Positions 2,726 to 45,792 of a stretch of 64,000 nucleotides of DNA are shown here, piece by piece. Under the pieces are notes generated by a model. That model saw nothing but the letters and a program-made list of their open reading frames with translations. It made no database searches and was not told the DNA's origin. The DNA is from Nesterenkonia sp. E16_10. Lineage in GTDB: Bacteria > Actinomycetota > Actinomycetes > Actinomycetales > Micrococcaceae. The first letter of the stretch is position 1, and the number at the start of each line of letters is the position of its first letter. The stretch lies in contig NZ_JADPSA010000013.1 in NCBI RefSeq assembly GCF_017347085.1, positions 49,795-113,794 of the forward strand. The letters run 5' to 3'. A program made the position numbers and the translations under genes.

Positions 2726-2732
2726 CCCGGAG

Positions 2733-4337: not shown

Positions 4338-4341
4338 GGGC

Positions 4342-11906: not shown

Positions 11907-11937
11907 GGCCGGACCGTCTGGAGAAGGTGACCCACCG

Positions 11938-12441: not shown

Positions 12442-12479
12442 GCCGCGGTCGGCAGGGGCGCCGTCGCGCCATCCGCGGC
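12442..12479 (+). terminator. Weak inverted repeat between convergent genes
   Basis: GCCGCGG (12442-12448) and CCGCGGC (12473-12479) flank a 24-base spacer between the convergent SRPBCC and MerR genes. The placement suggests a terminator, but the stem is short and there is no T-run. Confidence 0.3.
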
Positions 12480-12498
12480 ACATCTGTGGGTGCGTCGC

Positions 12499-13314: not shown

Positions 13315-13330
13315 GTCTCCACCTCACGGT

Positions 13331-13351
13331 CTGACACTGTGTCAGGGTCAA
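13331..13351 (-). promoter_or_regulatory. MerR-type operator/promoter
   Basis: CTGACACTGTGTCAG (13331-13345) is a perfect 7+1+7 palindrome. On the minus strand it directly follows TTGACC (13346-13351), which would be the -35 box. MerR regulators bind such dyads inside overlong spacers. The site lies 17 bases upstream of the MerR start, so it probably autoregulates that gene. Confidence 0.65.
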
Positions 13352-13423
13352 GACTGCCACGGAGTTCCAGTGAGTCTTCGCAGGGATCGGTGGGCGAACT
13401 GGGACTGACCACAGTGTCGTGGA

Positions 13424-13966
13424 TCAAACACGTTCAAGGGCGCGATGAGGTTCAGCCGGAAACTCCACGCGGATTCCATCACCGACGCTCACCTCGCCGC
13501 CTGCGCATACGATGCCCATGACTCCTGCTTTTCGGACGACGTTTCCTTCACTGTCCCGGGGCAACACCGCTTTCAAGAGTCCCGACTGGAAGCGATCAAT
13601 TTGAAAGCAAGGGGTACGTAGACCGGTCACCTGTACGACAGCAGTTTCTCCAATGTGCAGAACGGTCCCTTCAGGGAGGCTCAACAAATCGACCCCTCGG
13701 GTGGTGATGTTTTCTCCGAGATCACCAGGTCGGACCGAAAAGCCCTCCGCACCGAGCTCATCGAACAGTTCGGCGTGGATTAGATGGACCTGGCGCAGGT
13801 TGGGCTGTGTCGGATCTGCCTGAACTCTCGAGAGATGTTGCACGGTCTCACCAGCATGCGCGTCACCTTGCACCCCCAGTCCTTCGACAAGAACACAAGA
13901 CCGAAGTGGTTTCTTACTGAAGCTATGCTCCGCACTCTGACTGACTGAAACTACATGGTTACCCAT
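13424..13966 (-). CDS. MOSC domain protein
   Basis: A 180-residue stand-alone MOSC domain. LGVQGDAHAGETVQHLSR is the N-terminal conserved G-x-x-GDxHxG segment. Later come NLRQVHLIHAELFDEL, VRPGDLGENITTRGVDL (the GDLGENI/T signature) and VTGLRTPCFQIDRF, which carries the conserved cysteine that binds sulfur or the molybdenum cofactor. Stand-alone members such as YiiM reduce N-hydroxylated compounds with Moco. The start follows a good site, AAGGAAAG. The gene is less GC-rich than the operons to its left and begins a region of gene remnants. Confidence 0.85.
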   Translation of the reverse strand: MGNHVVSVSQSAEHSFSKKPLRSCVLVEGLGVQGDAHAGETVQHLSRVQADPTQPNLRQVHLIHAELFDELGAEGFSVRPGDLGENITTRGVDLLSLPEGTVLHIGETAVVQVTGLRTPCFQIDRFQSGLLKAVLPRDSEGNVVRKAGVMGIVCAGGEVSVGDGIRVEFPAEPHRALERV

Positions 13967-13979
13967 TCTTTCCTTCCAC

Positions 13980-14681
13980 ATGCCAGAAATATCAGTTCCC
14001 ACTCGGAGCTGTCCAAGCCCACTTCCAACAGCTGAGGTGCACTTGGCTAGAACGACTGGTCGAGACATTCGCACTCTACCGGCGTGGCTCAGGGGCGTGG
14101 CAGGATCGCCGGACGGGCGGCTTGAATACCCCAAGGTCCACGTCGACGAAGACGTCTTGTACGTAGAGGACGGCAACATCATCACCAGTGCTGGGACAGC
14201 CGCAAGCATCAATGCTTGTCTCTATCTGATCCGTGAAGAGTTCGGAGCAAAAGCAGCCACCGCGATTGCTCGAACCATGGTCGTGTCGACACACCGCGAT
14301 GGTGGCCAGGCGCAATACATAGACCGGCCGGTAGCAATACGAACCGGCGACCCGATGGAAGAACTCCTCGTCTGGCTCACCGAGAACCTCGATCAGCAGT
14401 TCTCCGTCACAGAACTCGCCCAGCGCATGCACCTGTCCGACCGCACATTTGCGCGCCGCTTTCGCGCCGCGACTGGGACGACGCCAACGTCCTGGATCAA
14501 TTCGCAACGGATCCTCCGAGCGCAGACCCTGTTGGAAGACAGCCAGCTGAGCATCGATGAGATTGCTCGTGAGACCGGCTTCGGACACGCCGTCCTGCTT
14601 CGACACCACTTTCACCGGACCCTCGGCACCAGTCCCGCCTCCTACCGACAGGCTTTTCGCGGTCGAGTACTCAGCCCATAG
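13980..14681 (+). pseudogene. GlxA-type AraC regulator, 5'-truncated
   Basis: From about 14110 the frame matches the second half of GlxA-family regulators: YPKVHVDEDVLYVEDGNIIT (end of the DJ-1/PfpI-like sensor domain), TSAGTAASINACLYLIREEF, then a complete two-helix AraC DNA-binding domain (SVTELAQRMHLSDRTFARRF and SIDEIARETGFGHAVLLRHH). Full-length relatives are about 310-330 residues; here the first roughly 120 residues of the sensor domain are missing. The 5' part of the open frame (13980-14110) has no family resemblance. The DNA-binding domain is intact, so a short product may still be made, but the original gene is broken. Confidence 0.68.
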
Positions 14682-14697
14682 GCGCATCTCGTGCCGG

Positions 14698-15015
14698 TCA
14701 GGCTGCGGTCAGAGTCTCGATCGCATCCCAGAGTTCGGCTTCACGGCCAGCGTCATAGGACTCTTCCGGGGAACGGGCGACCATGGCTCTGTCGATATAA
14801 GGACCGCTCCGCGCCGTCGATCTTGCCAGGACGACATTCGCGAGATCCCGACCGGCAGTCCTTGAAGGTGTGGCCAGCCGCGTGCGGCTCATGAACGGCA
14901 TGACATGGACCATCATGAAGCGCGAGACGGGATCTGCGCTCCGGGCCGAAGCCGTACTTGGGACGAGTCCGGGATTGAAGGCGACGACGTCTCCAGAATC
15001 AACGTCTGCCCCCAC
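14698..15015 (-). pseudogene. Short-chain dehydrogenase C-terminal remnant
   Basis: The minus-strand frame encodes VVAFNPGLVPSTASARSADP and later SRTAGRDLANVVL, ending SPEESYDAGREAELWDAIETL. This is the typical C-terminal third of protochlorophyllide-reductase-like short-chain dehydrogenases (the NPGL segment after the catalytic YxxxK, and the final SYD..RA..LW helix). The Rossmann domain and the catalytic Tyr/Lys are absent upstream, so the gene is a 5'-truncated remnant. The bounds are those of the open frame; the recognisable part is about 14703-14990. Confidence 0.6.
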
Positions 15016-15071
15016 CCGACCGGAGGCACGATGGACCCCTCCTCTGCACCACGACTTGCCGGAAACTGGAA

Positions 15072-15396
15072 CTAGCCGTTCAGCGCGGCCGCCGCCTGCA
15101 CACCGAGCTCGGTGAAACCCAACCGTTGAGCGAGTCGGCGTGATGCCTCATCCTCCCCGCAGCGGGACTTCACGCCGGGTTCAGCGCCGCCCACCGGTGT
15201 TCTGTCTTTTCGATGCCGCTCTCATCCCACTTCGGTACGCTCACTCCCCCGCGCATCGAGGAGACGGCTGCGAGCCCGGCGGCGCTCACCTCGATCGGAC
15301 CCGGTCGAGGTCAGCGTTCAGCGAAGCGGAGGCGCCGAGCGCATTCACCCGCGCCGCGACGATGCGTCCCGGGGCCGTCTCAGTGAGAGGCGCGAA
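15072..15396 (-). pseudogene. Decayed paralogue of the GNAT gene at 28154-28855
   Basis: Three blocks align with the intact acetyltransferase gene in order: FAPLTETAPGRIVAARVNAL (intact SEPLTDITRRRIVTAWANAL), MRGGVSVPKWDESGIEKTEH (intact MRAGVSAAEWEESGLEETEC) and ASRRLAQRLGFTELGVQAAA (intact ASRVLAQRLGYTPLGVQAAV), ending in the same LNG and stop. The segments between the blocks, including the acetyl-CoA-binding core, are deleted and the blocks are in different frames. It cannot encode an active enzyme. Together with the phosphatase remnant at 16734 it marks an old duplication. Confidence 0.8.
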
Positions 15397-15416
15397 AAGC
15401 AGTCCCCTAGATCGAC

Positions 15417-15938
15417 CTAGTACTTGGCGGCCCTCGACTTTTCGCGGCGGGTCGCGAGAAGCATGCGTCCCAGGTACATCGGCGTGGGTGGGGTCCACCC
15501 GAGTTGCTGACCCATTCCGAGATCGTCACGGTTTGCCCAGTGCTCGGCGACCCTGCCGTCCCTCATGCGCAACCAATGCGTCTGAGTGACCGCGAAGGAC
15601 CGGCCGCGTGGCGGGAACGCAGCTGCTACCTTGGCATCCGGCCCGTAGCTGACGAACGGACCCGTCTGCCGCCCGGACATGGTGCTGTGGATGACCACAA
15701 GCTCGCCGTCGTGGACGACCTCGTGGACCTCCCAGGCCAGGTCGCTGAATGCGGCCCGCAGCCACGAAGCGGAGGCGAACAGGGCGGCTGGCCCCGTTCC
15801 ACGGGCCTCCGGTGGCTCCGCCAGAGCCTCTCGGTTGACTGCGTCCTCCGTATAGAGCGGCCGAAAGTCCGCCAGGGTGCCTGACCCCATGGCGTGCAGC
15901 GAGGCGACGGCGACATCTGCATCAGTGCTCGTGGTCAT
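15417..15938 (-). CDS. SnoaL-like (NTF2-fold) ester cyclase family protein
   Basis: A 173-residue protein with the SnoaL/NTF2 cone fold. DFRPLYTEDAVNREALAEPP (early helix and strand) leads into ASWLRAAFSDLAWEVHEVVH, then GELVVIHSTMSGRQTGPFVS, THWLRMRDGRVAEHWANRDD and GMGQQLGW. These are the motifs of polyketide-cyclase-like SnoaL proteins, including the FxDxxxxV..... and H.ANRDD patterns. Most have no known substrate. The start at 15938 has AGGGG nine bases upstream. It is divergent from the TetR gene at 16003 with an operator-like dyad between them, so the pair is probably a regulator and its target. Confidence 0.8.
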   Translation of the reverse strand: MTTSTDADVAVASLHAMGSGTLADFRPLYTEDAVNREALAEPPEARGTGPAALFASASWLRAAFSDLAWEVHEVVHDGELVVIHSTMSGRQTGPFVSYGPDAKVAAAFPPRGRSFAVTQTHWLRMRDGRVAEHWANRDDLGMGQQLGWTPPTPMYLGRMLLATRREKSRAAKY

Positions 15939-15972
15939 CTGAATCATCCCCTAGTATTGGCGACCAACAGAC

Positions 15973-15985
15973 TGTATCGAATACA
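15973..15985 (+). promoter_or_regulatory. Operator-like dyad between SnoaL-like and TetR genes
   Basis: TGTAT (15973-15977) and ATACA (15981-15985) form an inverted repeat around CGA in the 64-bp divergent promoter region. The hexamer ACTGTA also recurs 20 bp downstream (15971 and 15991). The position suits a TetR operator acting on both genes. Confidence 0.5.
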
Positions 15986-16002
15986 AGGAGACTGTAATCA
16001 AA

Positions 16003-16656
16003 GTGGCACCGAAGGTCAAGGAAAATGCTCGGTCCTACGACAATTCGAATCGAGCGGCGCAGGCGGCAGCCAATCGCAGAAGCGTGCTGGACGCCACCGC
16101 ACGGCTCCTGGTCGAGCAGGGATACAGTTCCATGACACTGGCTGAGGTGGCCAGGACGGCGGGCGTCTCCGTGGAGACGGTGTACAAGGCGTTCAAGAAC
16201 AAGCCCGAACTCGTCCGTCAGGCACTGGGCGCAGCGGTCTCAGGGGACGACGAGCAGGTGGCCCTGATCGAGCGCCCCGATATGCAGGCTGCCCTGCACG
16301 AAGGAGCGGGCGACCGGATCCTCAGTGCCTTCGTGGTGGCTTCCACCCGCATCCTGACGCGCATCGGACCGCTCCTGGCGAGCGTGCTGGTCGCCGGACG
16401 AGCCGGCGAGCCCGAGCTGCAGAAGATCGCCGATGTGGCTGGCCGAGAACGGCTGGCCGACTTCACCCGGATCATCGAGGCGGTGGCAGCTACTGGAGAC
16501 CTGGACCCACGCCTCGACGTAGCCCACGCGGCCGACGCGATGTGGAGCATTGGATCCCCGGAGGTCTATTTTCAACTCACCAGCGATCGCGGCTGGACCG
16601 ACGAGGAGTACCGCGACTGGCTCACCCGCACCCTGCAGAGCACGTTGCTGCGCTGA
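16003..16656 (+). CDS. TetR/AcrR-family regulator
   Basis: 217 residues starting at a GTG, with AAGGAG about 12 bases upstream. The N-terminal DNA-binding domain is clear: RRSVLDATARLLVEQGYSSM followed by TLAEVARTAGVSVETVYKAF and KNKPELVRQAL. The C-terminal domain (about 75-210) is all-helical and contains the TetR_C-like YFQLTSDRGWTDEEYRDWL ending. The effector is unknown. It probably represses itself and the divergent SnoaL-like gene through the dyad at 15973-15985. Confidence 0.88.
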   Translation: MAPKVKENARSYDNSNRAAQAAANRRSVLDATARLLVEQGYSSMTLAEVARTAGVSVETVYKAFKNKPELVRQALGAAVSGDDEQVALIERPDMQAALHEGAGDRILSAFVVASTRILTRIGPLLASVLVAGRAGEPELQKIADVAGRERLADFTRIIEAVAATGDLDPRLDVAHAADAMWSIGSPEVYFQLTSDRGWTDEEYRDWLTRTLQSTLLR

Positions 16657-36207: not shown

Positions 36208-36250
36208 CGCCGGAGGTGAGCATTGGTCGTGCTGTGCTCAGGGGCTCGTA

Positions 36251-36290
36251 CTAGACGTTGAACCTAAACTCCACCACGTTCCGTAGCCGA
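36251..36290 (-). other. Attachment-site-like copy 1 of the ychF 3' end
   Basis: On the minus strand, 36251-36280 encode [18 protein letters not shown] sequence ending VVEFRFNV and TAG, the same C-terminal peptide as YchF (44453), with several synonymous codon differences. Thirteen bases (AACTCCACCACGT) are identical to ychF. The adjoining inner sequence CCGTAGCCGATTATC resembles the one beside copy 3. I interpret this as the outer boundary of an integrated array. Confidence 0.7.
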
Positions 36291-36373
36291 TTATCGTGTC
36301 TCGGGATTCTCAGCACGTGCCAAATCGACCCAAGAAGCTTGGAATGTATCTCCCAGAACGATACACTTAAAGC

Positions 36374-37435
36374 ATGAAGTCGAACGATGCTCTCCGCATC
36401 CTCTCGGAGCTCACTGCGTACCAATGGGGCATGGTGACATCGGCCCAAGCCAGCATGCACGGCATCACCCGACTTAACCTCTCCCGACTGACCGAAGCTG
36501 AACATCTCAATCGTCTTGCACATGGCGTCTACAAGGATTCGGGCGCACCGAGCAATCAGTTTGAGGACCTGCGTGCAGTTTGGCTTAGCACTGACCCCAA
36601 GGTCATGGGCGAGCAACGGATCCAGAATTACGCTCACGGGGTCGTTGTCGCTGGAACTTCCGCGGCCCACCTCCACGAGGTCGGGGATCTGTGGGCCGAC
36701 CACCACGAGTTCGTATCTCCAAAGCGCCGCCAAAGTCAGCGGCGCGAGATTCGCTACCGTCAACGAACCCTGAGCCCCCGTGATGTCACGCTTGCGCACG
36801 GCCTCCCAACCATGACAGTTGAGCGCACCCTCGCTGATCTTGTCGAAGAAGTAGGCGACCTTAGTCTCGTTGCCGACACACTTCGCGACGCGGCATTCAA
36901 GCGCACCCTGGACCTCGAACGACTGCGCGAGCTGCTCTCCCCTTTGGCTGAGCGCAATGGATTCAAGAGGCGCGACGGAAACGCCCTGCTCAACCGGCTG
37001 CTCGAGACCGCAGGGCTCGACGCGGACGCTGTCGCGCGACGAGTAGCGGCGGACTCCTCACTCGGATCCCGTGTTGCAGCGAGCTACCTGGGCAATCTCA
37101 GTAAGGCAGATCTTGATCACCTTGTCACGACGCCAGAGATGCAAAAGTCGATGCGCTCGTTCCAAGAATCAATGGCCAAGATGCTTCAAGGTGCGCTGTG
37201 GCGTGAAACACCCGCGCTGAGCGCGAGCGTGCATGCGTCGATGACAAACCTGATGAACAGTGGGGCCTTCGACACCATCACGAAGAGCCTCACGGCTGAG
37301 CTGGCTAGGAGCGATGCGATCAGACGTCTAACCGACGACTGGGGCAAATCACTCAGTGATCGCATTGCTTCCAGTCCGGAAATACTCAGGGAAATTCGTT
37401 CGCCTCAGAATGTGGACCACGATGACCCAGCATGA
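36374..37435 (+). CDS. abiEi: AbiEi-family antitoxin of type IV TA/abortive-infection system
   Basis: 353 residues. The N-terminal winged helix reads ILSELTAYQWGMVTSAQASM and GITRLNLSRLTEAEHLNRLA, then HGVYKDSGAPSNQFEDLRAV, the AbiEi_4-type promoter-binding domain (Q.G..T..QA...G......L...G.l.rv..GvY). SLSPRDVTLAHGLPTMTVER is the second conserved block (d....GlpvT...RTl.Dl). The helical C-terminus (about 215-353) is longer than in compact AbiEi proteins. It represses its own operon and counteracts the downstream AbiEii nucleotidyltransferase. It overlaps that gene by 14 bp. The sequence is visibly less GC-rich than the core genes. Confidence 0.88.
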   Translation: MKSNDALRILSELTAYQWGMVTSAQASMHGITRLNLSRLTEAEHLNRLAHGVYKDSGAPSNQFEDLRAVWLSTDPKVMGEQRIQNYAHGVVVAGTSAAHLHEVGDLWADHHEFVSPKRRQSQRREIRYRQRTLSPRDVTLAHGLPTMTVERTLADLVEEVGDLSLVADTLRDAAFKRTLDLERLRELLSPLAERNGFKRRDGNALLNRLLETAGLDADAVARRVAADSSLGSRVAASYLGNLSKADLDHLVTTPEMQKSMRSFQESMAKMLQGALWRETPALSASVHASMTNLMNSGAFDTITKSLTAELARSDAIRRLTDDWGKSLSDRIASSPEILREIRSPQNVDHDDPA

Positions 37436-38333
37436 GCCCTACTCGACTTCTCGCGGCGTCGAGAGCGCAATCAAGGAGGCTGCTAAGCGGCAGGCGGCAG
37501 GTCAGCCATCTCTCAGCGTCAACAAGCGGATCCAGTTGGAGTATTTCAATCGCTTTCTGAGTCGAGTGTTCTCAGAGCGCGACGGCTCCGAGTGGGTCCT
37601 TAAGGGAGGCACCGGCATCCTCGCACGGGTACCCTCAACGCGATCGACCCAAGACATCGATCTCTACCGCAAAGGCTTCACTCTTAAACAATCTCTCGAT
37701 GACTTGAACCGACTTGCCGCGCTCGACCTCGGCGACCACTTCCGCTTCGAGTACGCGGGGCACACTGACTCGATCGGTAATGACGCCCAGCCTTACACCG
37801 AGGGTTACCGAGTGAAGTTCAACATCTTCATCGGGCTCGCCCCGAGGGGCACTCTCCATGTCGATCTCGCCGTGGGCGCTGGCGTGACCGGAGTCGTTGT
37901 GACAAAGCGACCTGCAACCGCGCTGGACCTACCCCGTTTAGCCAGCAACCCGTACCACCTATATCCGGTCGTCGATCAGATCGCTGACAAAGTCTGCGCG
38001 ACCATGGCCAACTACAGAGAGAGGACCTCGAGCCGCGAGAAAGACCTCGTCGACCTAGTGGTCCTTGCCGCCACGCACGACATCGATGGGACCAAACTCC
38101 GTATTGCGATCACCACGGAGACTCGTCGCCGGACCATGAAGGAACTCACTCGCTTCGCTGTGCCCGCAACGTGGGGAGCGGGATATGCCAACCTCAGCAG
38201 TTCCGTACCGCACTGTACCGACTACGCCACGGTAGACCGCGCGAGCGCACTCGCGGGTAACCTCGTCGACCCGGCCCTCTCAGGTGAGGCCGATGGCAAG
38301 ACGTGGTCTCACACCTTGCTCGACTGGGCCTGA
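37422..38333 (+). CDS. abiEii: AbiEii-family nucleotidyltransferase toxin
   Basis: 303 residues. WVLKGGTGILARVPSTRSTQ (58-77) followed by DIDLY (78-82) is the nucleotidyltransferase core: Gly-Gly-Thr then Asp78-x-Asp80, the Mg-binding pair, all intact. DQIADKVCATMANYRERTSS with REKDLVDLVVLA is the second AbiEii motif (DK..A.......R.KD..DL). Homologues modify tRNA 3' ends with nucleotides and halt growth, aborting phage infection. The ATG at 37422 lies inside the antitoxin gene, giving translational coupling. With AbiEi it fills the first cassette of the array. Confidence 0.9.
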   Translation: MTQHEPYSTSRGVESAIKEAAKRQAAGQPSLSVNKRIQLEYFNRFLSRVFSERDGSEWVLKGGTGILARVPSTRSTQDIDLYRKGFTLKQSLDDLNRLAALDLGDHFRFEYAGHTDSIGNDAQPYTEGYRVKFNIFIGLAPRGTLHVDLAVGAGVTGVVVTKRPATALDLPRLASNPYHLYPVVDQIADKVCATMANYRERTSSREKDLVDLVVLAATHDIDGTKLRIAITTETRRRTMKELTRFAVPATWGAGYANLSSSVPHCTDYATVDRASALAGNLVDPALSGEADGKTWSHTLLDWA

Positions 38334-38381
38334 AAGTTGGTCCCGCAACTCAACTTGCGCTCATACTCAGCGCCCCAATGA

Positions 38382-38417
38382 TTAAACATTGAATCTAAAT
38401 TCCACCGAGCTCCGGTA
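38382..38417 (-). other. Attachment-site-like copy 2 of the ychF 3' end
   Basis: On the minus strand the end of this stretch encodes VEFRFNV followed by TAA (38382-38405), identical in peptide to the YchF C-terminus but with codons GTG GAA TTT AGA TTC AAT GTT, differing synonymously from both ychF and copy 1. It separates the AbiE cassette from the kinase cassette. Confidence 0.68.
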
Positions 38418-38561
38418 CGGACCAACCTCTGCTCGAGCAATACCACGGAGCTCCCGCGCGCGAATGCCACCGCGGGTATAGGGATCCACCCGTACACGCC
38501 AGAGGCTTTAGTGCTTGCTTGCGCAACTTGTACCCCACCGTGCAGCTGGCACTCCTGTTGA

Positions 38562-39746
38562 CTAAGCAGGTACACCCTTCGCATCGACTTGAAGGGCTTC
38601 CACGTCCGCAATCAGATCGATGACCCGCTGATATCGCTTGTCCGGTTGAGAATCGATGCATTTCTGGACAATGTGCTCGACCGAAGTGGTTGCGGTCCTC
38701 CCCACGTTCTTCCGTCCAGTGAATATGTAGAGCAGGACGAATCCGGCAGCGAAAATGTCATGGACACTTTCGAATTCCTTGAAGGATCCAAGAGCTGGGT
38801 CAAGCTTGGTGCCTTTCAGTTCCGTCTCCGTCACTGTGAACTCTGAGCCCTGTCGCTTGGCCAACCCAAAGTCGGATAACTTGACGATCACCGCAGAACC
38901 GCCGAAGGTTCGCAGGAGAACGTTCCTTATGCTCAGATCACGATGAAAGTGACCTTTTGAGTGAATATAATTCAGGCCGTAGAGGAACTGGAGAGCGATG
39001 CGTTTACGAGTCATCAGGCCGAAGCCTGGCTGGTTGTTGCGCTTGGCCACATGCTCTTCCAACGTCGTATCGCAGTGCTCCATGGTGTAGGACCAGTCCG
39101 ACGCCTTGAAACGGTAGACCTCCAACACATACGGGAACTGTAGTTCCTTCATCAGTTCGAACTCCCTGCGGAACCGTTCCTTCTCCCGGTCATCAGCACC
39201 GGGCTTGAGCTTCTTACGTGCGAGCTTCATGCCGTAGTTGGGGTCGGTGAAGCGATGCACCACTGCGAAGGCCCCTTCACCGATGGGGGTCAGCTTCACC
39301 GTGTGTGAGTCTGTCAGCTTGACCGTCCGGTCCCCGAGGCTGAAGACGGGGGCATAGCTTTCCACTTGAATCGGAGTGAACCCTTCCGGGATGGCACTAC
39401 CGCCGCTGGACGTCAACCACGATGGAGCGTTCTCAATGACACGCTGATACTCCGGACTCACCACGAGTTCATGACCAGCCTTACTCAGAACCTTGCGGGC
39501 CTCAGTCACCTGGTCAATCAGGTCCCGAAGGCTTCTGGAGTTATCGGCGTTGAAGTGGCCGCCACGTCCATCCCGAGATTTGTAGTTCATCCACTTGAAC
39601 TCTGCATCCAGACCAGCGTGTATCGCGGCAAAAGCCCGAGGCGCCGTTTGCTCACGCCGGTACAACTCTAAATAGGTGCGGTCAATGTCCTGGTCGTAGA
39701 ACGTTCGCTCGAAGCGCTCCACCCGCTCCTGTTCCATAGTGTTCAT
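38562..39746 (-). CDS. Serine/threonine protein kinase in putative defence cassette
   Basis: 394 residues. The kinase domain spans about 150-390 with every catalytic element: glycine loop GEGAFAVV (156-163), ATP lysine Lys174, HRDLSIRNVLL (268-278; catalytic Asp270, Asn275), DFG (292-294) and the GTKLDP activation segment. The N-terminal 130 residues are helical, polar and unrelated to PASTA or other Pkn-type domains. No transmembrane helix is present, so it is cytosolic. It is the only intact gene between two attachment-like sites. Stand-alone kinases with unknown N-terminal domains occur in phage-defence islands, and I infer that role here. Confidence 0.85.
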   Translation of the reverse strand: MNTMEQERVERFERTFYDQDIDRTYLELYRREQTAPRAFAAIHAGLDAEFKWMNYKSRDGRGGHFNADNSRSLRDLIDQVTEARKVLSKAGHELVVSPEYQRVIENAPSWLTSSGGSAIPEGFTPIQVESYAPVFSLGDRTVKLTDSHTVKLTPIGEGAFAVVHRFTDPNYGMKLARKKLKPGADDREKERFRREFELMKELQFPYVLEVYRFKASDWSYTMEHCDTTLEEHVAKRNNQPGFGLMTRKRIALQFLYGLNYIHSKGHFHRDLSIRNVLLRTFGGSAVIVKLSDFGLAKRQGSEFTVTETELKGTKLDPALGSFKEFESVHDIFAAGFVLLYIFTGRKNVGRTATTSVEHIVQKCIDSQPDKRYQRVIDLIADVEALQVDAKGVPA

Positions 39747-39874
39747 GGGGTAAGGCTAACGAAACCGGCATCCTCGACCGGGGAAGCCACACGGCCCCGC
39801 AACTTGGAGCGAAGGCCCGGCACCACCAGGTCCTACCGTGCCCGAGGAAAGGTGTCGTGGCGCGGGCGCTCTCG

Positions 39875-40043
39875 CAGGTTGCACGACTAGTGCAGCGCGT
39901 TCGCGCTCCGCGACCGTACGCAAGTCGCCAATTCGCGAAGCGACTGCTGCGGAGAACGGAAGACCGCGCATCACTGACTCCAAATAGTCCCAGTCAGGAT
40001 CACCCACTAGAGGCACTGGAAGCAAGATCTCGGTCCGTTTCAT
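39875..40043 (-). pseudogene. Possible restriction specificity-subunit remnant
   Basis: The minus-strand frame reads MKRTEILLPVPLVGDPDWDY, then LESVMRGLPFSAAVASRIGD. This resembles the C-terminal portion of restriction specificity-type proteins (I.LPV...G.PDW.YME.YMR.LPYS). There is no full gene around it. The remainder of 39747-40188 has no recognisable frame. The family call is tentative. Confidence 0.3.
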
Positions 40044-40188
40044 CCGGGTCAGGTTCCACTTGTAGCCATTACTTGAGACGCAAACGTCCAAATCGGATTA
40101 TCGCAGCGACGAACAGCAGTACCCAGCGGCTTACTTCGCGCTCGGGAATGAGGACCTGAAAGCCGTCCGACGAGAAGAAGGGTTCGTC

Positions 40189-40228
40189 CTAGTAGAACGC
40201 GATCCCCACCACATCCCGGAGCCGAGTA
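40189..40228 (-). other. Degenerate attachment-site-like copy 3
   Basis: The minus strand encodes TRLRDVVGIAFY and TAG, aligning with [13 protein letters not shown] and TAG of copy 1. At DNA level CCACCAC, CCG, AGCCGA and TATC are shared in order with 36271-36294. The coding match to YchF is mostly lost, but the flanking arm is retained. It separates the kinase cassette from the DUF262 cassette. Confidence 0.5.
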
Positions 40229-40604
40229 TCCCCTGTCTGGCCCCACGTACCGCACCACCGTCGCCAGCGGGCGTCCTGGGCCGACGACCACAACCGAATA
40301 CAAGACCATCGACTAGCGACGTCCACTGGACACCAAGCCGTAGGACAGGTCGGGCTGAAACCTACTCGCGCATCTGACCCACGGACGATAGAGGTTGCTA
40401 GTGCTAGATGGCCGCGCTGAACACAGGTTCCTCAACCGAGTTCATCCGGTTCCCCACCTTCGGTTTGACGGAACCGCCGACTGTTCGCGGTGGCAAACTG
40501 GAACGGGGACTCTCCCGGGTCTGCATCAACACGAGGAGCTTACCGAAGCCTTGAGTTCGCAATTTCGCTCTTCTAAGGTACGTACTCCATGCGGGCGGCG
40601 GCGA
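40229..40604. other. Non-coding stretch left of DUF262 genes
   Basis: 376 bp of mixed composition with no recognisable gene or clear terminator. It presumably contains the 3' untranslated region of the DUF262 operon and the left arm of that cassette. Confidence 0.4.
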
Positions 40605-42647
40605 TCAGATACCGGAAACTGATCGAGTCCGCTCTCTTGCCAATGCCCCGCGCAACAACTCCACCATCTCCTCGTGATGAGCGCGCACATCCGCATCGTT
40701 CCAACTCCCTGTCTCCGCACGCCGTGCCATCAGCTCAAGCTTCAGGCTCTGCCGGCGAGCATCGTGGTTGTTCGCCTTCTGCGCGGGGAGGTAGTTGCTG
40801 AATTTCGAGTTTGTCCTCACAGTAACCAGCGCCAAGTTTCCAAACCAATCGAGAAGGTGCGGATCCTCTAAGCGGTATGCGAATGAGGAGTGCTCGATGT
40901 CCTCGGTGCCCGGAGAGAAGTGCTCCACGGAGGTGCGATAGCTGAAGGTGAAGCCCCATTGGTTCATCTCCTCCACCAGCAGGTAGTCCAGGTAAGTGAA
41001 CACGATGCGCGGGATGGCGAAACCGAGCGCCATCCCATCCGGGCCGGTCCCTTCCTTGTCCAGGTCCGGAGTCATCGCTTCGCGCAGGCGCTCGCAAGCA
41101 AGGGACTCAAGATGATCGAGGAATCCCTGAGCTGTGATTGGTTCACCGTGATCGGCGAGCTCGGTGACGTAGCGCAGCGCTTCGGTCATCCAGTGCATGG
41201 TGCGCGGGGAGGTATAGGTGATGCGCAGCGCCGACTGCAACAGCAGGATCCGTCGGTTCAGGTTGCGGGAGCCGGCACCCGATTCGTCCGCAGCGAATGT
41301 AGAGGGGTATCGGGGGGTGTCCTGAAATTTGTTGCCACGACGGGACGATCCTTGCGCGAGCCGGCACAACGACCAGTTTCCGGGTTCTTCGTCCGTGGTG
41401 GATTCGTGCCCGGTGGTCAGCGTCGCATCACGCTTAAGGATGAACTGGTCGAATAGGTAGCGGATGCGTAGCAGGTCCGTGGTGAACTCGCGCACCCAGT
41501 CCATACGCTCCGACGGCGGCAGTGAATCGACGCGGGCAGAGAAGCGCTGGACTAACAGTTTGTCATCGAGCTGACGGTCATCCTCCTGCGCAGAGTCGCC
41601 CCCTGTTCCCTTCACCGCGAGAACCTGCAGAAGCAGAGTTGAGAACGTGATCTGCGATGTGAATCGCTCACCTGCGTCGACATCTTCTGACTTAGCCGTG
41701 TCGGTGATCTGAGAGTAGGCAGCCACTGCAGCGTCTAGCGTTAGCGCCGTGGTTTCGAGCGTGTGCGAAGTATCGTCGGCGACGCGCGAGGCTCCGCCTG
41801 AGGGGGTATCGATGAGCTGTGCACGCAAGCGGGAGAAGTCTGCTGTCGGAATTTGGTCCCAGCCGGGGCCAAGGACTTCTGCGCGTTGAGAGGTGCTGCC
41901 GGTGGTGACGCTCATCCCGACGTAGTGCTCCATGTCGGAGCATGCGGTCCAGACGCGGTTCAACAAGGCGCGATCGAGGGGGTCAGGAAGGCAGCGGAGG
42001 AGTCGCGCCTTGACGATGTCCACGGGACTGAGCTGCGTACCGCGGGTATTCATGATCTCGAAGTACCGGTTCAGATCGGTGCTGCTGTCAATAGGCATGC
42101 GGACGATGAGAACCCTGGTGAGCAGATAGTCGATCACCCGAGACGTCTGTAAACGGTCCCCGCTGGTCCCGCCGTCCAGTAGCTGTTCGATGATCGTCGA
42201 AGCACGGCGGATACCAGAGTCCTCTCGATCCTTCTCACCCTCCACCGGCTTCTTGTTCGTATCGGCAACGCCGCGAAGAGCGCGGGTGGCCTTCTCCCGT
42301 GCCTCGTAGGTGAGTGGTTGAAGCGGACCGATGGACTCCTTCAGTCCTGGCCGGGAGGAGAGCTTGACCAGCAGGATGTACAAGGTGGTCAAACGCTGCT
42401 GTCCGTCGATCACGTCGAGCGGCTTATCAGTCCGTTGCGGACGGGCAACGACGAGATTGCCGAGGAAATAGTCCTTGGGCTCCTCCTGCTCGGCTTCGTC
42501 TAAGACGTCGTGGATCAGCCGGTGTATTTGCTCCTCGCCCCAGGTGTAATTGCGCTGGTAGAGAGGGACCGAATAGCTGGGCGCATCAGGACTGAAGAGC
42601 TGCCCGACGGGGACGGCCTGGACGTCATGATCAATGGTCTGTGTCAT
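40605..42647 (-). CDS. DUF262/DUF1524 (GmrSD-type) protein
   Basis: 680 residues. The N-terminal DUF262 domain has YSVPLYQRNYTWGEEQIHRL (25-44) and DVIDGQQRLTTLYILLVKLS with DGQQR at 81-85, the ParB-like nucleotide-binding motif. The last roughly 110 residues form a DUF1524-type region with EHFSPG (the H-x-x-P of the HNH-like nuclease) and FGNLALVTVRTNSKFSNYLP (the GNL...N...SN.. pattern). GmrSD proteins are NTP-dependent restriction enzymes that target modified phage DNA. It starts one base after the second DUF262 gene ends, so the two are an operon. Confidence 0.85.
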   Translation of the reverse strand: MTQTIDHDVQAVPVGQLFSPDAPSYSVPLYQRNYTWGEEQIHRLIHDVLDEAEQEEPKDYFLGNLVVARPQRTDKPLDVIDGQQRLTTLYILLVKLSSRPGLKESIGPLQPLTYEAREKATRALRGVADTNKKPVEGEKDREDSGIRRASTIIEQLLDGGTSGDRLQTSRVIDYLLTRVLIVRMPIDSSTDLNRYFEIMNTRGTQLSPVDIVKARLLRCLPDPLDRALLNRVWTACSDMEHYVGMSVTTGSTSQRAEVLGPGWDQIPTADFSRLRAQLIDTPSGGASRVADDTSHTLETTALTLDAAVAAYSQITDTAKSEDVDAGERFTSQITFSTLLLQVLAVKGTGGDSAQEDDRQLDDKLLVQRFSARVDSLPPSERMDWVREFTTDLLRIRYLFDQFILKRDATLTTGHESTTDEEPGNWSLCRLAQGSSRRGNKFQDTPRYPSTFAADESGAGSRNLNRRILLLQSALRITYTSPRTMHWMTEALRYVTELADHGEPITAQGFLDHLESLACERLREAMTPDLDKEGTGPDGMALGFAIPRIVFTYLDYLLVEEMNQWGFTFSYRTSVEHFSPGTEDIEHSSFAYRLEDPHLLDWFGNLALVTVRTNSKFSNYLPAQKANNHDARRQSLKLELMARRAETGSWNDADVRAHHEEMVELLRGALARERTRSVSGI

Positions 42648-42648
42648 C

Positions 42649-43989
42649 TCAGCGGGACTCCCTTAGCAGGGTGAGTAGCCGAGCGTCCTCGGGGTTGTCA
42701 GTCCGGGGCGTGTTCGGGGCGTTCATGTTCTCCAGCTCGATCTCCCGCGGATCGAGACTGTCGCGGATGGCGGAGAACAGGTTCACGTTGTTCAGACCTT
42801 CCAGATTGGCGCTAAGCCCTCGCGCGTAGTTGTCCGTGGTTCTCCAGCCCAAACGCTCGTATGCCAACCGGAGGGCGAATGCCCAGCGGAAGAGGTGGCG
42901 TCGTACCTGCGGCATATCAGCCTCTGAGTACTTGTTGGTGTAGTAGAGGGCCGCAGCGACGTATAGCTCCCGGCAGTACCTAAATCGCGCCCCGTCGTGG
43001 AAGACCGTGAGATCCGCACTCGTAAGACCAGCTGTGTTGGCATCCGAAAAGAGTTCCTCGTCCAACCGCTGATACTCCCCGAGCATGAACGCGGCGTAGT
43101 CGAAGAAGGACTTGCCCGCAGCGACCGGAGCATCAAGCTGGTGCTGGGCACGCTTGAGATCTCTGCGGGTCACTGGGTCGGCATCAGGATGGGACCACTC
43201 TTGTAAACCGGGGAGCACCACTTTGGCAGCGCGATGGTATTCAGCCCCCGGCAGGCGACGGGTCGACCTGCCGACTCCTTTGAATAGATTCAGGTCATCA
43301 GTAGTAAATGCATGCGCTGACATGTTGCGGCTCCACCAGTGAATGCGGGCCAGGTAGGTGCCGAAGAGTCGGTCCAGGTCGTTCTCATCCGCCTTCTCCC
43401 ATTGCTCGACCACGGCGCGCTGCTCGGCGATGCTCGCATCCGCCATTTCTCGCAGGTGGAAGGCCTTGAGCAGGTCATGCGGACGCAGTGACTTACCCCG
43501 GAAGTTCTGTGAGTCGAAGAACTGGAATGCCTCATCCTCGTCATCGGTGACGATTCTCAAAACCTTAGCGTCGGCGTCGAGGAAATCCCGGTACCTTGCG
43601 AAGCGCCTGGAAGAACGTTCGAGGTCAGAGACTCGACGTGAGAGTTCCTGGTGGACGTGGTGGATCGGGGTGTCCCCTGATTGGAGATGGGGGATCCTCT
43701 GACCGCGCAAAAGCGCCCGCAGCATGTGGAGGGTCAGGATTCGTTGCTGCCCATCAACCACCTCGAAATGCGACTCCTGCGGACGGCTCAGGAGGATCAC
43801 GGTTCCCATGATGTAAGGGTGCTCCGGCCTGGTATCGAGAGCCTCCGCGACATCCGTGAACAGCTGTGCCGCGACGCGTGGGGACCAGGAGTACGGGCGT
43901 TGAAAATCGGGTATGCGCAGATCTGGAGCGTAAGTGCCAAGCAACTCGTCGACAGAGACGAACTGCAGCATTTCTTTGTTGATCGCCAT
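42649..43989 (-). CDS. DUF262 (GmrS-like) protein, first gene of pair
   Basis: 446 residues. LRIPDFQRPYSWSPRVAAQL (24-43) and FEVVDGQQRILTLHMLRALL, with DGQQR at 79-83, define a DUF262 domain. DEDEAFQFFDSQNFRGKSLR (F..N..G..L...D.lK) is the next conserved block. The C-terminal half is helical and has no HxxP nuclease motif, so this protein probably senses or hydrolyses nucleotide while the partner at 40605-42647 supplies nuclease activity. This division of labour is inference. The gene begins about 460 bp from the ychF stop. Confidence 0.83.
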   Translation of the reverse strand: MAINKEMLQFVSVDELLGTYAPDLRIPDFQRPYSWSPRVAAQLFTDVAEALDTRPEHPYIMGTVILLSRPQESHFEVVDGQQRILTLHMLRALLRGQRIPHLQSGDTPIHHVHQELSRRVSDLERSSRRFARYRDFLDADAKVLRIVTDDEDEAFQFFDSQNFRGKSLRPHDLLKAFHLREMADASIAEQRAVVEQWEKADENDLDRLFGTYLARIHWWSRNMSAHAFTTDDLNLFKGVGRSTRRLPGAEYHRAAKVVLPGLQEWSHPDADPVTRRDLKRAQHQLDAPVAAGKSFFDYAAFMLGEYQRLDEELFSDANTAGLTSADLTVFHDGARFRYCRELYVAAALYYTNKYSEADMPQVRRHLFRWAFALRLAYERLGWRTTDNYARGLSANLEGLNNVNLFSAIRDSLDPREIELENMNAPNTPRTDNPEDARLLTLLRESR

Positions 43990-44452
43990 GATGTCGACCG
44001 TAGTGGATAGATGGGACCGGGGTCGGGCGTGACACCGGAACGTGCAGTTGGCGCTTGTGTGGACGCAAGAGCGTCTCGTGCGGGTTCCAATGTACTGGGC
44101 CAGGGCTTAGGCGAGCCTGGTAACAATCCACACTTGACCGCGCTCCTTTGTGAGCCGATCCCTCGTCGAATTGCCGAGGTCTGTTTCAGAGGAGGCATTG
44201 AATCAGAAGCCTTGGGAGGTGCGCATCTCCCGAGAAGCTGGAACCGAGCAGAAAGTGGTCCCTTGTGCCCTAACGGCGGCCGATTTTTGACGGCGAGACA
44301 TAGGCTGAATTGACTTCCGCTCCTGCGCGGATCCCGCTGGCGAAGAAGCCAATTCAGCACAAGTAATTCCGATTAACTAAAAGTGGATCAGAACTCGAAT
44401 TTTTATCTCAAATTGAGGACAGAAGCCAAAACTCCTGGTCGGGAACGTATTT
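43990..44452. other. Non-coding stretch between DUF262 operon and ychF
   Basis: 463 bp with no recognisable gene. The last 90 bp before the ychF stop are AT-rich (AAATTCCGATTAACTAAAAG-like, then TTTTTATCTCAAATTG). It should contain the DUF262 promoter and the right arm of the cassette. Confidence 0.45.
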
Positions 44453-45538
44453 TTACACGTTAAACCGGAACTCCACCACGTCGCCGTCCTTCATGATGTA
44501 TTCCTTGCCCTCGATCCGGACCTTGCCGGCAGACTTCGCATCGGCCATAGACCCAGCGGCCACCAGGTCCTCGAAGTTGACGATCTCGGCCTTGATGAAG
44601 CCGCGCTGGAAGTCGGTGTGGATCACGCCGGCGGCCTCGGGCGCCGTCGCTCCCTTGTTGACCGTCCAGGCGCGGGTCTCTTTGGGCCCGGCGGTGAGGT
44701 AGGTCTGCAGCCCGAGCGTGGCGAAGCCGACGCGGGCCAGCTGGTCCATGCCGGACTCTTCCTGGCCGTTGAGCTCCAGCATCTCGCGGGCCTCCTCCTC
44801 GGAGAGCTCCACGAGGTCGGCCTCAAGCTTCGCGTCGAGGAACACGGCGTCAGCCGGGGCGACCAGCGCCGCCAGCTCGGCCTGCTTCTCGGCGGAGTTC
44901 AGCACGCCTTCGTCGGCGTTGAACACGTAGATGAAGGGCTTGGCGGTGAGCAGGTTCAGCTGGGAAAGGTGCTCCATCTCCAGCTTGTCCTTGGTGATGG
45001 AGCTGAAGATGGTGTCACCGCGCTCCAGGGTCTTCTGCGCGACCAGGTAGGCGTCCAGGGTGGCCTGCTCGGCCTTGCGCCCCTTGACCTGCTTCTCCAG
45101 CTTCGGGATCGCGTTCTCCATGGTCTGGAGGTCAGCCAGGATCAGCTCGGTGTTGATGGTCTCCATGTCCGAGGTGGGATCCACCTTGCCGTCCACGTGG
45201 ATGACGTTCTCGTCCTCGAAGACCCGGACCACCTGGGCGATCGCGTGGGCCTCACGGATCGTGGCCAGGAACTGGTTGCCCAGCCCCTCCCCCTCGGAGG
45301 CGCCCTTGACGATCCCGGCGATGTCGACGAAGGACACCGTGGCGGGAAGGATCTTCTGCGAGCCGAAGATCTTCGCCAGCTCATCAAGCCGCTCATCAGG
45401 CAGATTCACGATGCCCACATTGGGCTCGATGGTCGCGAACGGGTAGTTCGCCGCCAAGATCGACTGACGAGTCAGCGCGTTGAACAGGGTCGACTTGCCC
45501 ACATTGGGTAGTCCTACGATTCCGATAGTCAAAGCCAC
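44453..45538 (-). CDS. ychF: Redox-responsive ATPase/GTPase YchF (Obg family)
   Basis: About 361 residues. The G domain begins [20 protein letters not shown] (P-loop, with Leu in the position that favours ATP), followed by [20 protein letters not shown] and [20 protein letters not shown] (switch II). The C-terminal TGS domain ends [12 protein letters not shown]. YchF is a universally conserved ribosome-associated ATPase affecting stress and translation. I take the GTG at 45538 (MALTIG..., AGGTGA upstream) rather than the GTG two codons earlier. Its 3' codons recur at 36251 and 38382, so the gene end appears to be an integration target that leaves the protein intact. Confidence 0.95.
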
Positions 45539-45792
45539 GGTCACCTAACCTACCGTCCCTTGGCCCCCGCGGCGACTTCCAGGGCCTTTCCGCCTCTGAC
45601 CAGCGCACCTTAGAATGAGACTCCGTTCAGCATGTGGACCAGGTCCCCGGAGTTTCTGGAGATTCGGATCACATCTACCGCCCTCTGGTGCCGCGGACGC
45701 GGCCATCCCGTGTCTAAGATGCCTGAGGCTCCATCACTCGAACCTATTGATACACAAGCGCACTCACTCAGCACCGGAAGGAACACAATTTC

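Follow-up and report, generated by a model that had tools for sequence, protein, structure and literature searches.

Tandem arrays of integrase-less cassettes behind ychF, likely inserted in trans by a large serine integrase

The window analysed here, a stretch of 64,000 nucleotides from Nesterenkonia sp. E16_10, carries integrase-less cassettes lined up in tandem where ychF ends; they probably got there through site-specific recombination, catalysed in trans by a large serine integrase. The array is genuine, and arrays of this type extend well beyond the window. Three extra copies of a 52-bp site follow ychF, all in its orientation and one of them decayed, and these delimit cassettes carrying AbiEi/AbiEii, a kinase on its own and a GmrSD-like (DUF262) pair. 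A full site consists of a 27-bp left arm and a 25-bp right half, the right half of the host site being the last codons of ychF (VEFRFNV-stop). The features are as follows:

44453..45544, minus strand: ychF (GTPase, 363 aa; Pfam YchF-GTPase_C, 1.1e-38)
44452..44503, minus strand: ychF-borne site, host-type left arm GACGGCGACGTG plus right half; GT centre 44476-44475
40210..44476, minus strand: cassette 1, 4.3 kb, DUF262/GmrSD_N pair, delimited by sites 44476 and 40209
42649..43989, minus strand: GmrSD_N/DUF7834 protein of cassette 1, 446 aa (Pfam 2.4e-25 and 7.4e-52)
40605..42647, minus strand: GmrSD_N/GmrSD_C protein of cassette 1, 680 aa (Pfam 2e-31 and 1.3e-08)
40185..40236, minus strand: degenerate cassette site, left arm kept (17.4 bits), right half decayed (-33.5 bits)
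38406..40209, minus strand: cassette 2, 1.8 kb, lone protein kinase, between sites 40209 and 38405
38562..39746, minus strand: protein kinase of cassette 2, 394 aa, matched best by the PADLOC model mad6 (Pfam 1.5e-27; PADLOC 6e-32)
38381..38432, minus strand: cassette site, right half VEFRFNV-stop, left arm 24.4 bits
36275..38405, no strand assigned: cassette 3, 2.1 kb, AbiEi/AbiEii type IV toxin-antitoxin, between sites 38405 and 36274
36374..37435, plus strand: AbiEi antitoxin, 353 aa (PADLOC 3.4e-90)
37356..38333, plus strand: AbiEii toxin, 325 aa (PADLOC 1.1e-113)
36250..36301, minus strand: cassette site, right half VEFRFNV-stop, left arm 22.7 bits
34900..36207, plus strand: saccharopine-dehydrogenase-like gene

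The VEFRFNV repeats that a sequence-only reading had noticed in one orientation are real: 36252-36279, 38383-38410 and 44454-44481 form a single direct-repeat family, and full-site centres, read on the minus strand, fall at 44476 (ychF), 40209, 38405 and 36274. The degenerate copy reported near 40189 is likewise genuine, as its left arm stands far above the background (99.9th percentile, -0.4 bits). Profile matches (PADLOC and Pfam) agree with the contents which that reading gave for the three intervals, and the array indeed lacks an integrase: the window contig (C13) carries neither PF00239, all seven of the genome's seven matches lying elsewhere, nor PF00589 among the seven of eight own-genome matches listed.

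The proposal that the repeats are attachment sites is supported by relatives with an empty site. The right half of the site at 36250..36301 continues into sequence that directly adjoins ychF in four other genomes, three of which (G016, G007 and G021) match window positions 36209-36279 at 88, 83 and 82% identity and the fourth (G022) positions 36232-36279 at 94%. Each match ends inside the site, and what follows ychF in these relatives is what lies past the third cassette in the window. Invariance downstream of ychF had been named as an outcome that would speak against attachment sites; the content there differs among Nesterenkonia genomes, and cassettes common to several genera, with their ends at sites, also support the proposal. 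The empty site had been pictured as ychF followed by the saccharopine-dehydrogenase-like gene, and here empty sites do exist but the gene is no fixed flank: it lies between two sites in six relatives (in G007 one site appears only at a looser threshold), and no second site was found around it in the window. Recent movement of the window AbiE cassette is without support, because its relatives, in eight other genomes of 396, share 66-77% identity and none was found to have a site in the flanks examined.

The site is present behind ychF in 18 of 29 Nesterenkonia loci, and the pattern matches in 22 of 30 Nesterenkonia genomes, some with the ychF end as sole match, with 0 matches for a reversed control pattern in the same 30. 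A wider scan recovered it in at least 118 slices from at least 40 named genera, in a single orientation within each slice (L128 and L180 were excluded as duplicates; L211 and L155, from the same genomes as G018 and G009, were retained in some tables). Altogether, 366 sites (69 at ychF) were found in 151 sequences with none on the reverse strand, and ychF, present in 44 of the 118 slices, is always upstream and on the same strand. In 35 ychF-downstream regions there were 95 forward matches (ychF's own copies included), none in reverse and none in shuffled sequence, the best reverse score being -0.25 against a threshold of 14. Among 297 non-ychF sites, 206 have a right half that reads VEF[RK]FNV-stop and 273 have a stop at the corresponding codon; the left half is the 27-bp non-coding arm. 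The dyad on GT is modest (9/24 positions with a run of six; 8/24 at the next best centre), and exact matches of the strict site pattern in viral contigs numbered zero. Counting against an array bound to ychF, 4 of 30 Nesterenkonia genomes have sites off the known ychF contig. These copies (in G007, G009, G004 and G005) comprise a two-site array, a lone site with transposase-like genes next to it, and sites for which the end of the contig is 1.5-2.6 kb away; a tyrosine integrase lies 5 kb from the off-ychF array of G007.

The median distance between sites is 1.4 kb, and arrays hold up to 10 internal sites in view. Of 510 cassette open reading frames (ORFs), 289 lie on one strand and 221 on the other (424 were selected and 423 scanned, L173:4300-4632 being left out), and the 25 commonest families of each batch include toxin-antitoxin pairs, acetyltransferases, SMR efflux proteins, glyoxalases and nucleotidyltransferases. 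The earlier description of the modules as defence-type thus holds in the window but not across the wider arrays, where the cargo is integron-like and not mainly defence. A newest-next-to-ychF order has no clear support: rank and score correlate in the pooled data (rho -0.30, p = 8e-4), but comparing the first site with the last in 31 arrays gives p = 0.30. Decay of sites with distance from ychF is likewise weak, the paired test being not significant.

Cassettes are shared between genera at up to 99% identity. At ≥88% identity over ≥400 bp we obtained 41 cross-genus rows, a few of which repeat a single match because their 300-bp flanks overlap and one of which has a partner labelled as a Bacillota MAG; 10 of the 41 run exactly from site to site (for example, Thermocrispum and Brachybacterium share a cassette at 98.9% over 1.9 kb), and 4 run beyond a site, which counts against site-delimited exchange. 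The shared unit starts with its own VEFRFNV-stop codons and ends with the 27-bp non-coding arm; breakpoints fall on the GT where arm and codons meet, and the cassette adjoining ychF provides the last codons of that gene. Synonymous differences between copies had been taken as a sign that each came from a different species' ychF, but this does not follow, since the synonymous codons travel with the cassette.

The breakpoints were resolved in 11 pairs from six cassette families, one pair lying within Nesterenkonia. At the upstream site, mismatches numbered 132/297 to the left of GT versus 9/264 to the right, and at the downstream site 8/297 to the left versus 62/264 to the right. Neither the G nor the T was mismatched in any of the 11 pairs, while heterology occurred at -1 of the upstream site in 2/11, both from a single 90-96% family, and at +2 of the downstream site in 5/11; when only the pairs at ≥97% are considered, the switch falls between -2 and +2. 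With no mismatch at G or T and heterology at -1 and +2, the pattern fits a 2-bp overlap, as would be expected of large serine integrases.

Such enzymes adjoin the site in other actinobacteria. Seventeen large serine integrases or remnants (11 + 6) have an arm-plus-codons site 24-45 bp upstream of the gene, a position consistent with that of attP next to int in elements of this kind. Eleven distinct integrases, six found through protein similarity alone, have the site at this distance from their start among 63 distinct loci examined (L383 and L386 repeat L308 and L312 and were counted once); loci were taken for 30 and 12 of the similarity-search matches, so site-bearing integrases number at least 11. 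The six others came from the 118 slices and comprise two intact genes (Nonomuraea L190 and Brevibacterium L231) and four remnants. Five of these proteins (L297, L307, L344, L190 and L231) combine the Resolvase catalytic and Recombinase domains (PF00239 and PF07508) at lengths of at least about 450 aa, all in partner elements and none in the window. The distal arms of the 11 integrase sites are closer to cassette arms than background (p = 8e-9) or ychF arms (p = 9e-8) are, although two of them (L306 and L382) fall only in the top 4% of background, and the arms at the six additional sites are of full cassette type (22.6-34.0 bits).

L231 and L207 have further sites besides the integrase-linked one, and an integrase or remnant is followed by further sites in G260, G140, L231 and L207, with no such case in Nesterenkonia. 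In five of six genomes checked, ychF lies on the integrase contig, correctly oriented, with the integrase 8-12.5 kb behind it. The integrase-bearing stretches give ychF a different YchF tail from that of most cassettes, with the VEFRFNV end at the far site, so the right halves may not be equivalent. Among 59 integrases, the 11 fall in a clade of 18 with seven relatives, four of which lie directly behind ychF, and the G246 integrase stretch also codes for D5-like primase and capsid domains. The sequence-only reading had suggested looking elsewhere for an integrase using the same site; one class was found in other genera, but 30 Nesterenkonia genomes yielded no cognate serine integrase (15 matches in 12 genomes, no site within about 1.5 kb). 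SuMoo, Percival and LastHope, phages whose serine integrases share 37-41% identity, showed no such site in the stretches examined around these genes, and a search of viral contigs for relatives of the L297 integrase returned only L297 itself. From these positions and breakpoints we infer strand exchange by a serine integrase at ychF sites, and the enzyme behind cassette movement is likely a large serine integrase lent by phage-like elements at the same place.

Movement by a tyrosine recombinase, either XerCD or an enzyme resembling the integrase of the satellite phage MulchRoom, appears very unlikely. PF00589 does occur in 30/30 Nesterenkonia genomes, many of the matches listed falling in two clusters that resemble XerC and XerD, and two observations count against a serine enzyme: across the L297 site from its integrase, a PF00589 tyrosine recombinase ends just 25 bp away, and the L306 site is adjoined by a 122-aa piece of a tyrosine recombinase. 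The MulchRoom integrase gene also lies about 70 bp from a stretch reading as a 17-residue peptide like the ychF 3′ end, and four IMG/VR contigs, two with equal scores, have its relatives adjoining the same kind of sequence. However, the left arm at MulchRoom is ychF-type (-9.1 bits versus a cassette-arm mean of 23.5), and the breakpoints leave about 2 bp of obligatory identity where tyrosine enzymes require a 6-8 bp overlap. No tyrosine recombinase was detected in the 35 ychF-downstream regions or the 118 slices with a profile recovering 51/51 control loci, 21 of them its training set; the negative result of a first profile, XerC/XerD-like dominated and contaminated with antisense frames, was not used because it missed 14/51 PF00589 loci. 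A dedicated enzyme common to array-bearing genomes was sought among 21 recombinases and not found, the closest being G010/G011 at 96% (G011 has no array) and G000/G020 at 95% over 128 aa (a fragment in G020).

Two further explanations were considered. Under one, no dedicated recombinase acts at present, the sites are fossils and blocks are now swapped by homologous recombination anchored in ychF and shared cassettes, as the window genome, with no integrase beside a site, and the two adjoining cassettes common as a block to Kocuria and Ornithinimicrobium might suggest; we regard this as distinctly improbable, given breakpoints on GT in six cassette families common to genera with differing flanks, the use of the same site by integrase-bearing elements, and a 24-bp shared core, which is a poor substrate for homologous recombination. 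It is also unlikely, if a little less so, that the cassettes are not independently moving units but what was left when integrase-bearing satellites decayed on the spot. The 8-12.5 kb integrase stretches, the satellite-like genes of G246 and integrase remnants inside the arrays of G140, L154, L207, L223 and L224 are compatible with such decay, but the same 1.2-1.9 kb integrase-less unit, with the same ends each time, recurs at 97-99% identity in different genera, an outcome that repeated decay would not produce.

Placement by a serine integrase in trans would involve recombination at GT between the ychF site, with left arm B, and the site of a cassette or phage, with left arm P. Since the right half of the cassette codes for the same peptide, ychF would stay whole and open to more insertions in one orientation. 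Cassettes that lack an integrase may be mobilised when the cell contains such an element, either in circular form or by being excised along with it.

In its way of working the array resembles integron cassettes, CIMEs (cis-mobilizable elements) and SCC, yet it belongs to none of these classes. Integron attC sites recombine as folded single strands. As in integrons, small one-orientation cassettes with similar cargo stand behind a fixed site; unlike in integrons, no IntI linked to attI lies alongside (no tyrosine recombinase being detected in the regions and slices above), a serine enzyme is implicated, the fixed site is a housekeeping-gene end with codons restored by each cassette, and ORFs occupy both strands. 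Window and shared cassettes resemble CIMEs and ICE-IME accretion in being att-flanked modules without recombination or transfer genes, stacked at a gene 3′ end and, in some genomes but not in Nesterenkonia, beside an integrase or its remnant, but they are far smaller and more numerous, and their partners use a serine integrase and look phage-satellite-like (G246), not conjugative. SCC and pseudo-SCC at rlmH share large serine recombinases, a conserved gene's 3′ end and composite tandem islands that include recombinase-less ones, whereas the target here is ychF in another phylum, cassettes hold one to few genes, most examined arrays lack an integrase, and no serine recombinase such as ccr lies on the window contig. 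The pdif modules of Acinetobacter plasmids are also integrase-less, lie between short sites and move in trans, but at XerCD dif-like sites and in a plasmid setting.

MulchRoom (PMC10690885) has, beside its integrase gene, a core equal to the ychF 3′ end in our comparison; with a tyrosine integrase and host-type left arm it differs from the ychF cassettes, which are not satellites of that type. The account of PAISt, at the bacA 3′ end of an actinobacterium, describes modules excised at repeated att sites, but with an 8-bp palindrome and one large island (PMC4057263), and a pneumococcal review places a prophage site beside ychF (PPH005). Titles and abstract openings among the best literature matches revealed no ychF cassette arrays of this kind.

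We consider it reasonably probable that the arrays are an actinobacterial counterpart of integrons: a standing ychF 3′-end array filled by satellite-phage large serine integrases, in which incoming cassettes rewrite the last codons of the GTPase, leaving the gene whole and the port open, and are shared across orders of the class. If so, a whole bacterial class would have a common and predictable address, minable by a 52-bp motif, at which genes for defence, toxin-antitoxin and resistance-type functions pass between genera in cassettes of one to a few genes, and integrons would have a counterpart built on a serine integrase. Variable YchF C-termini would be explained as cassette- or phage-supplied, cassette exchange by phage satellites would be directly testable, and the integrases and their sites are candidate genome-engineering tools.

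The repeats that the sequence-only reading had noticed behind ychF, a degenerate copy included, are confirmed as three sites in the orientation of the gene, and each interval does hold a different module:

G000:C13:49795-113794, within a 3.3-Mb genome: the window
44453-45544, minus strand: ychF
centre 40209, ychF orientation, downstream of ychF: site with a decayed right half
centre 38405, ychF orientation, downstream of ychF: site
centre 36274, ychF orientation, downstream of ychF: site
4.3 kb, delimited by sites: cassette with a DUF262/GmrSD_N pair
1.8 kb, delimited by sites: cassette with a lone kinase
2.1 kb, delimited by sites: cassette with an AbiEi/AbiEii pair

The site is about 52 bp long and is composed of a left arm of 27 bp, roughly CCAGAGGTTNTTCGGTNACGGAACGTG, which is conserved and is not ychF sequence, and a right half of 25 bp that matches the last codons of ychF (in its basic form VEFRFNV and a stop). 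VEF[RK]FNV plus stop is encoded by 206 of the 297 non-ychF sites and TAG, TGA or TAA stands at the stop codon in 273 of the 297, while variation in the right half is concentrated at synonymous positions. The best dyad, an inverted repeat CGGAAC/GTTCCG (9/24 positions, with a run of six), is centred on the GT joining the two halves, and the next best centre reaches 8/24. YchF tails such as VEFRSGLTSGGKK were also observed at the oriented ychF ends of four genomes (G001, G004, G005 and G013, the G005 end being blurred by N in the sequence), with no serine integrase detected near them; two internal copies of this type of tail in G004 point to a second cassette class. In the genome G006, 32 kb downstream of ychF (G006:C1:278069-278200), a short stretch again matches YchF residues 301-344, at 50% identity.

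Trained on cassette copies, a position-weight model gave 95 forward matches over 35 regions downstream of ychF, a count that includes the copies at ychF itself, and none on the reverse strand or in shuffled sequence. Retrained on 239 sites (threshold 12), the model identified 366 sites in 151 sequences, in which the best reverse-strand score was -12. The site pattern matches 22 of 30 whole Nesterenkonia genomes, part of them solely at ychF itself, and a reversed control pattern matches none. With both half-sites scored, at least one further site was found at 18 of 29 Nesterenkonia ychF loci with no reverse call, a count in which G019 is a weak call, a site in G007 escapes the rule and five regions span merely 3-6 kb to a contig end. 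A scan of GTDB contigs extended the sites to at least 118 slices from at least 40 named genera, including Demequina, Brevibacterium, Microbacterium, Arthrobacter, Kocuria, Brachybacterium, Cellulomonas, Rhodococcus, Nocardia, Gordonia, Thermocrispum and Amycolatopsis. All detected sites within each of the 118 slices point in one direction; ychF is present in 44, always upstream and on the same strand as the sites, and was not found in the other 74 (slices of up to 8 kb). Site-to-site intervals have a median of 1.4 kb (5th-95th percentile 0.53-5.1 kb; n = 220), and up to 10 internal sites are in view behind a single ychF. Four cassette sites within 3.3 kb were also seen in Nocardia farcinica NCTC11134 (L304), on a 2.66-Mb replicon labelled plasmid 2 and typed as plasmid. 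One phage-labelled record (L302; MT836021.1, 'Bacteriophage sp.') holds a ychF end with a cassette-like site and is therefore likely a bacterial contig.

Mobility, previously inferred, is borne out by cassettes that are common to different genera, end at sites and break at the GT. Cross-genus comparisons yielded 41 rows of 88% identity or more across 400 bp or more (a few being one match counted twice via overlapping flanks): 10 run exactly site to site, one end or both fall at a site in 33, and 4 extend past a site. Examples of shared cassettes are:

1.9 kb, 98.9%: Thermocrispum and Brachybacterium
1,313 bp, 98-99%: Microbacterium, Brachybacterium and Brevibacterium
1,392 bp, 97-99%: Kocuria, Gulosibacter and Ornithinimicrobium
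1,167 bp, 99.3%: Nesterenkonia G015 and Brachybacterium paraconglomeratum

Across 11 pairs representing six cassette families, mismatches in the upstream site number 132/297 left of the GT versus 9/264 right of it, and in the downstream site 8/297 left versus 62/264 right. The G and the T are free of mismatches at either end, as are other strongly conserved positions; position -1 of the upstream site is mismatched in two of the 11 pairs, in one family with 90-96% identity, and position +2 of the downstream site in five. This switch at the GT at both ends indicates that the travelling unit consists of its own tail codons, its cargo and its own left arm. Microbacterium barkeri carries a 1,176-bp cassette directly at ychF, and the 24 bases that close this gene match, without a difference, those found in front of the cassette in a Timonella array, so that the cassette supplies the ychF end. 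A contig labelled as a Bacillota MAG (L195; JAJYSJ010000081.1) holds a cassette that matches one of Nesterenkonia G002 at 94% identity; the label is probably a binning error, and would otherwise imply cross-phylum transfer.

The strict cassette pattern had no exact match in viral contigs. A right-half-only pattern identified 13 viral stretches, in five of which (L289, L290, L292, L295 and L297) the gene of a large serine integrase (~450 aa) lies on the other strand, 30-45 bp from the site, and a genome search with the integrase protein alone gave six more loci of like arrangement (L306, L307, L308, L380, L381 and L382). An integrase elsewhere that probably has the same target, which the sequence-only reading had proposed to look for, was found in part: 11 of 63 distinct serine-integrase loci carry the site, but none of the 15 in Nesterenkonia. 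The distal parts of the left arms of the integrase-side sites resemble cassette arms (Mann-Whitney p 8e-9 versus background and 9e-8 versus ychF), L306 and L382 being weak cases. Eight of the 118 slices proved to hold sequence of a serine integrase when searched with a profile of the site-adjacent integrases; the gene starts 24-42 bp from a site with a fully cassette-like arm (22.6-34.0 bits) in six, and the sequence lies further off in L141 and L197. Of these six, the integrases of Nonomuraea lactucae (L190) and Brevibacterium sp. S111 (L231) are intact, with PF00239 and PF07508, and those in L154, L207, L223 and L224 are broken or truncated, the last three pieces being without a Pfam match at 1e-3 and assigned by profile and YLRIS motif. 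Two additional sites occur in L231 and three in L207. The same profile, run over the 35 ychF-downstream regions, found just one small resolvase, which lies in G020 at 9 kb past the last site there.

In a midpoint-rooted FastTree phylogeny that covers 59 integrases and predates the finding of those in the 118 slices, the 11 and seven relatives group together in a clade of 18 that takes in no outsider (support 0.91 for an inner ten and 1.0 for the seven). Four of the seven lie directly behind ychF (L311, L314, L319 and L388), those of Helcobacillus and G361 have ychF about 9 and 3 kb upstream, and for G132 no ychF was found within the 20 kb fetched. Next to a ychF-adjacent serine integrase in G174 (L344:7529-8874) are a caspase-domain protein (PF00656) and a small protein that by eye looks like a TIR protein; the two may form a defence pair. 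We located ychF separately in six genomes with a site-adjacent integrase: in G246, G289, G483, G499 and G684 it is on the integrase contig in the correct orientation, 8-12.5 kb from the site, and in G260 on a different contig. YchF ends in VEFRFSPTSK (twice), VEFRHGATTKPSK, VEFRHGGTSGTGKK and VEFRHSATTK in those five, and the far site of each stretch has the VEFRFNV-stop end, as expected if an element brings a new tail and displaces the native one. Annotation, which covered the G246 stretch of the five, gave D5-type primase/helicase and phage capsid domains, so that this stretch resembles a phage satellite or a small prophage. In G260 and G140 additional sites come after the integrase, which is broken in G140.

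A tyrosine-recombinase profile that recovers 51/51 control loci found none in the 35 ychF-downstream regions and 118 slices. On the far side of two serine-integrase-side sites, a tyrosine recombinase ends 25 bp away (L297:1335-2549) and a 122-aa piece of one abuts the site (L306:1088-1453); both may belong to neighbouring elements. In the Streptomyces satellite phage MulchRoom (OQ784832.1), a tyrosine integrase adjoins a ychF-end copy with a host-type arm (L301:7340-7380, intergenic, ~70 bp from the integrase gene start); the attachment core is likely the ychF 3' end, served by an integrase of a different family, and relatives of this integrase adjoin similar sequence in four IMG/VR contigs (L288, L291, L293 and L300). 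It appears that this one gene end was chosen by two enzyme classes unrelated to each other. The attB of pneumococcal prophage PPH005 is placed between DUF951 and ychF in Table 4 of a review on S. pneumoniae (PMC8637289), so that prophages are drawn to ychF neighbourhoods in Firmicutes too.

Empty sites were found as anticipated: sequence from beyond the third cassette is joined directly to ychF in G016 (88%), G007 (83%) and G021 (82%) for window positions 36209-36279, and in G022 (94%) for 36232-36279. The saccharopine-dehydrogenase-like gene, earlier taken as the original flank, lies between two sites in six relatives (G007, G010, G016, G018, G020 and G022) and is therefore better seen as an older cassette; a second site beside it was not found in the window. 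Among 510 cassette ORFs (289 and 221 on the two strands), 423 were scanned with Pfam, and the commonest cargo comprises helix-turn-helix antitoxin-type domains, GNAT acetyltransferases, alpha/beta hydrolases, PIN and HigB-like toxins, GmrSD_N, glyoxalases and short-chain dehydrogenases; Abi_2, ANT(2'')-like nucleotidyltransferase and small multidrug resistance families are also present. Integron cassettes have a similar cargo, and the profile is theirs and not that of a pure defence island, so that the description as defence-type modules holds for the window's three cassettes but not for cassettes at large. In three genera, sites flank a block with DUF3090 and histidine phosphatase genes that is 82-90% identical among them (G022 2566-5386, G033 10806-16631 and L162, oriented coordinates); these genes are usually chromosomal in actinobacteria, and may here be turning into cassettes.

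The comparisons show how the site is built, that cassettes are exchanged, where they break, that integrases are associated with the site and that ychF sites are occupied. For the enzyme's action, direction and route, we infer that a large serine integrase would join the cassette or phage site to the ychF site across the GT. With its right half the cassette would restore the end of YchF, and the left arm of the host would remain with ychF, so that the ychF site would still be usable and arrays would grow in one orientation; a newest-first cassette order was not demonstrated. Cassettes that lack an integrase would be moved when one from the clade is available, travelling either as circles or as passengers enclosed by the two ends of an element that carries it, and the passenger route is favoured because internal sites look like far junctions of such elements (cassette-type left arm, native tail). 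Our literature search, which went without most subscription journals and all preprints, found no description of ychF cassette arrays and is thus weak evidence of novelty. In their working the arrays resemble integron arrays, CIME accretion and SCC, yet as a whole they fit the defining tests of none of these. As searches of the window's genome found no cognate integrase, its array would presently be immobile unless one arrives.
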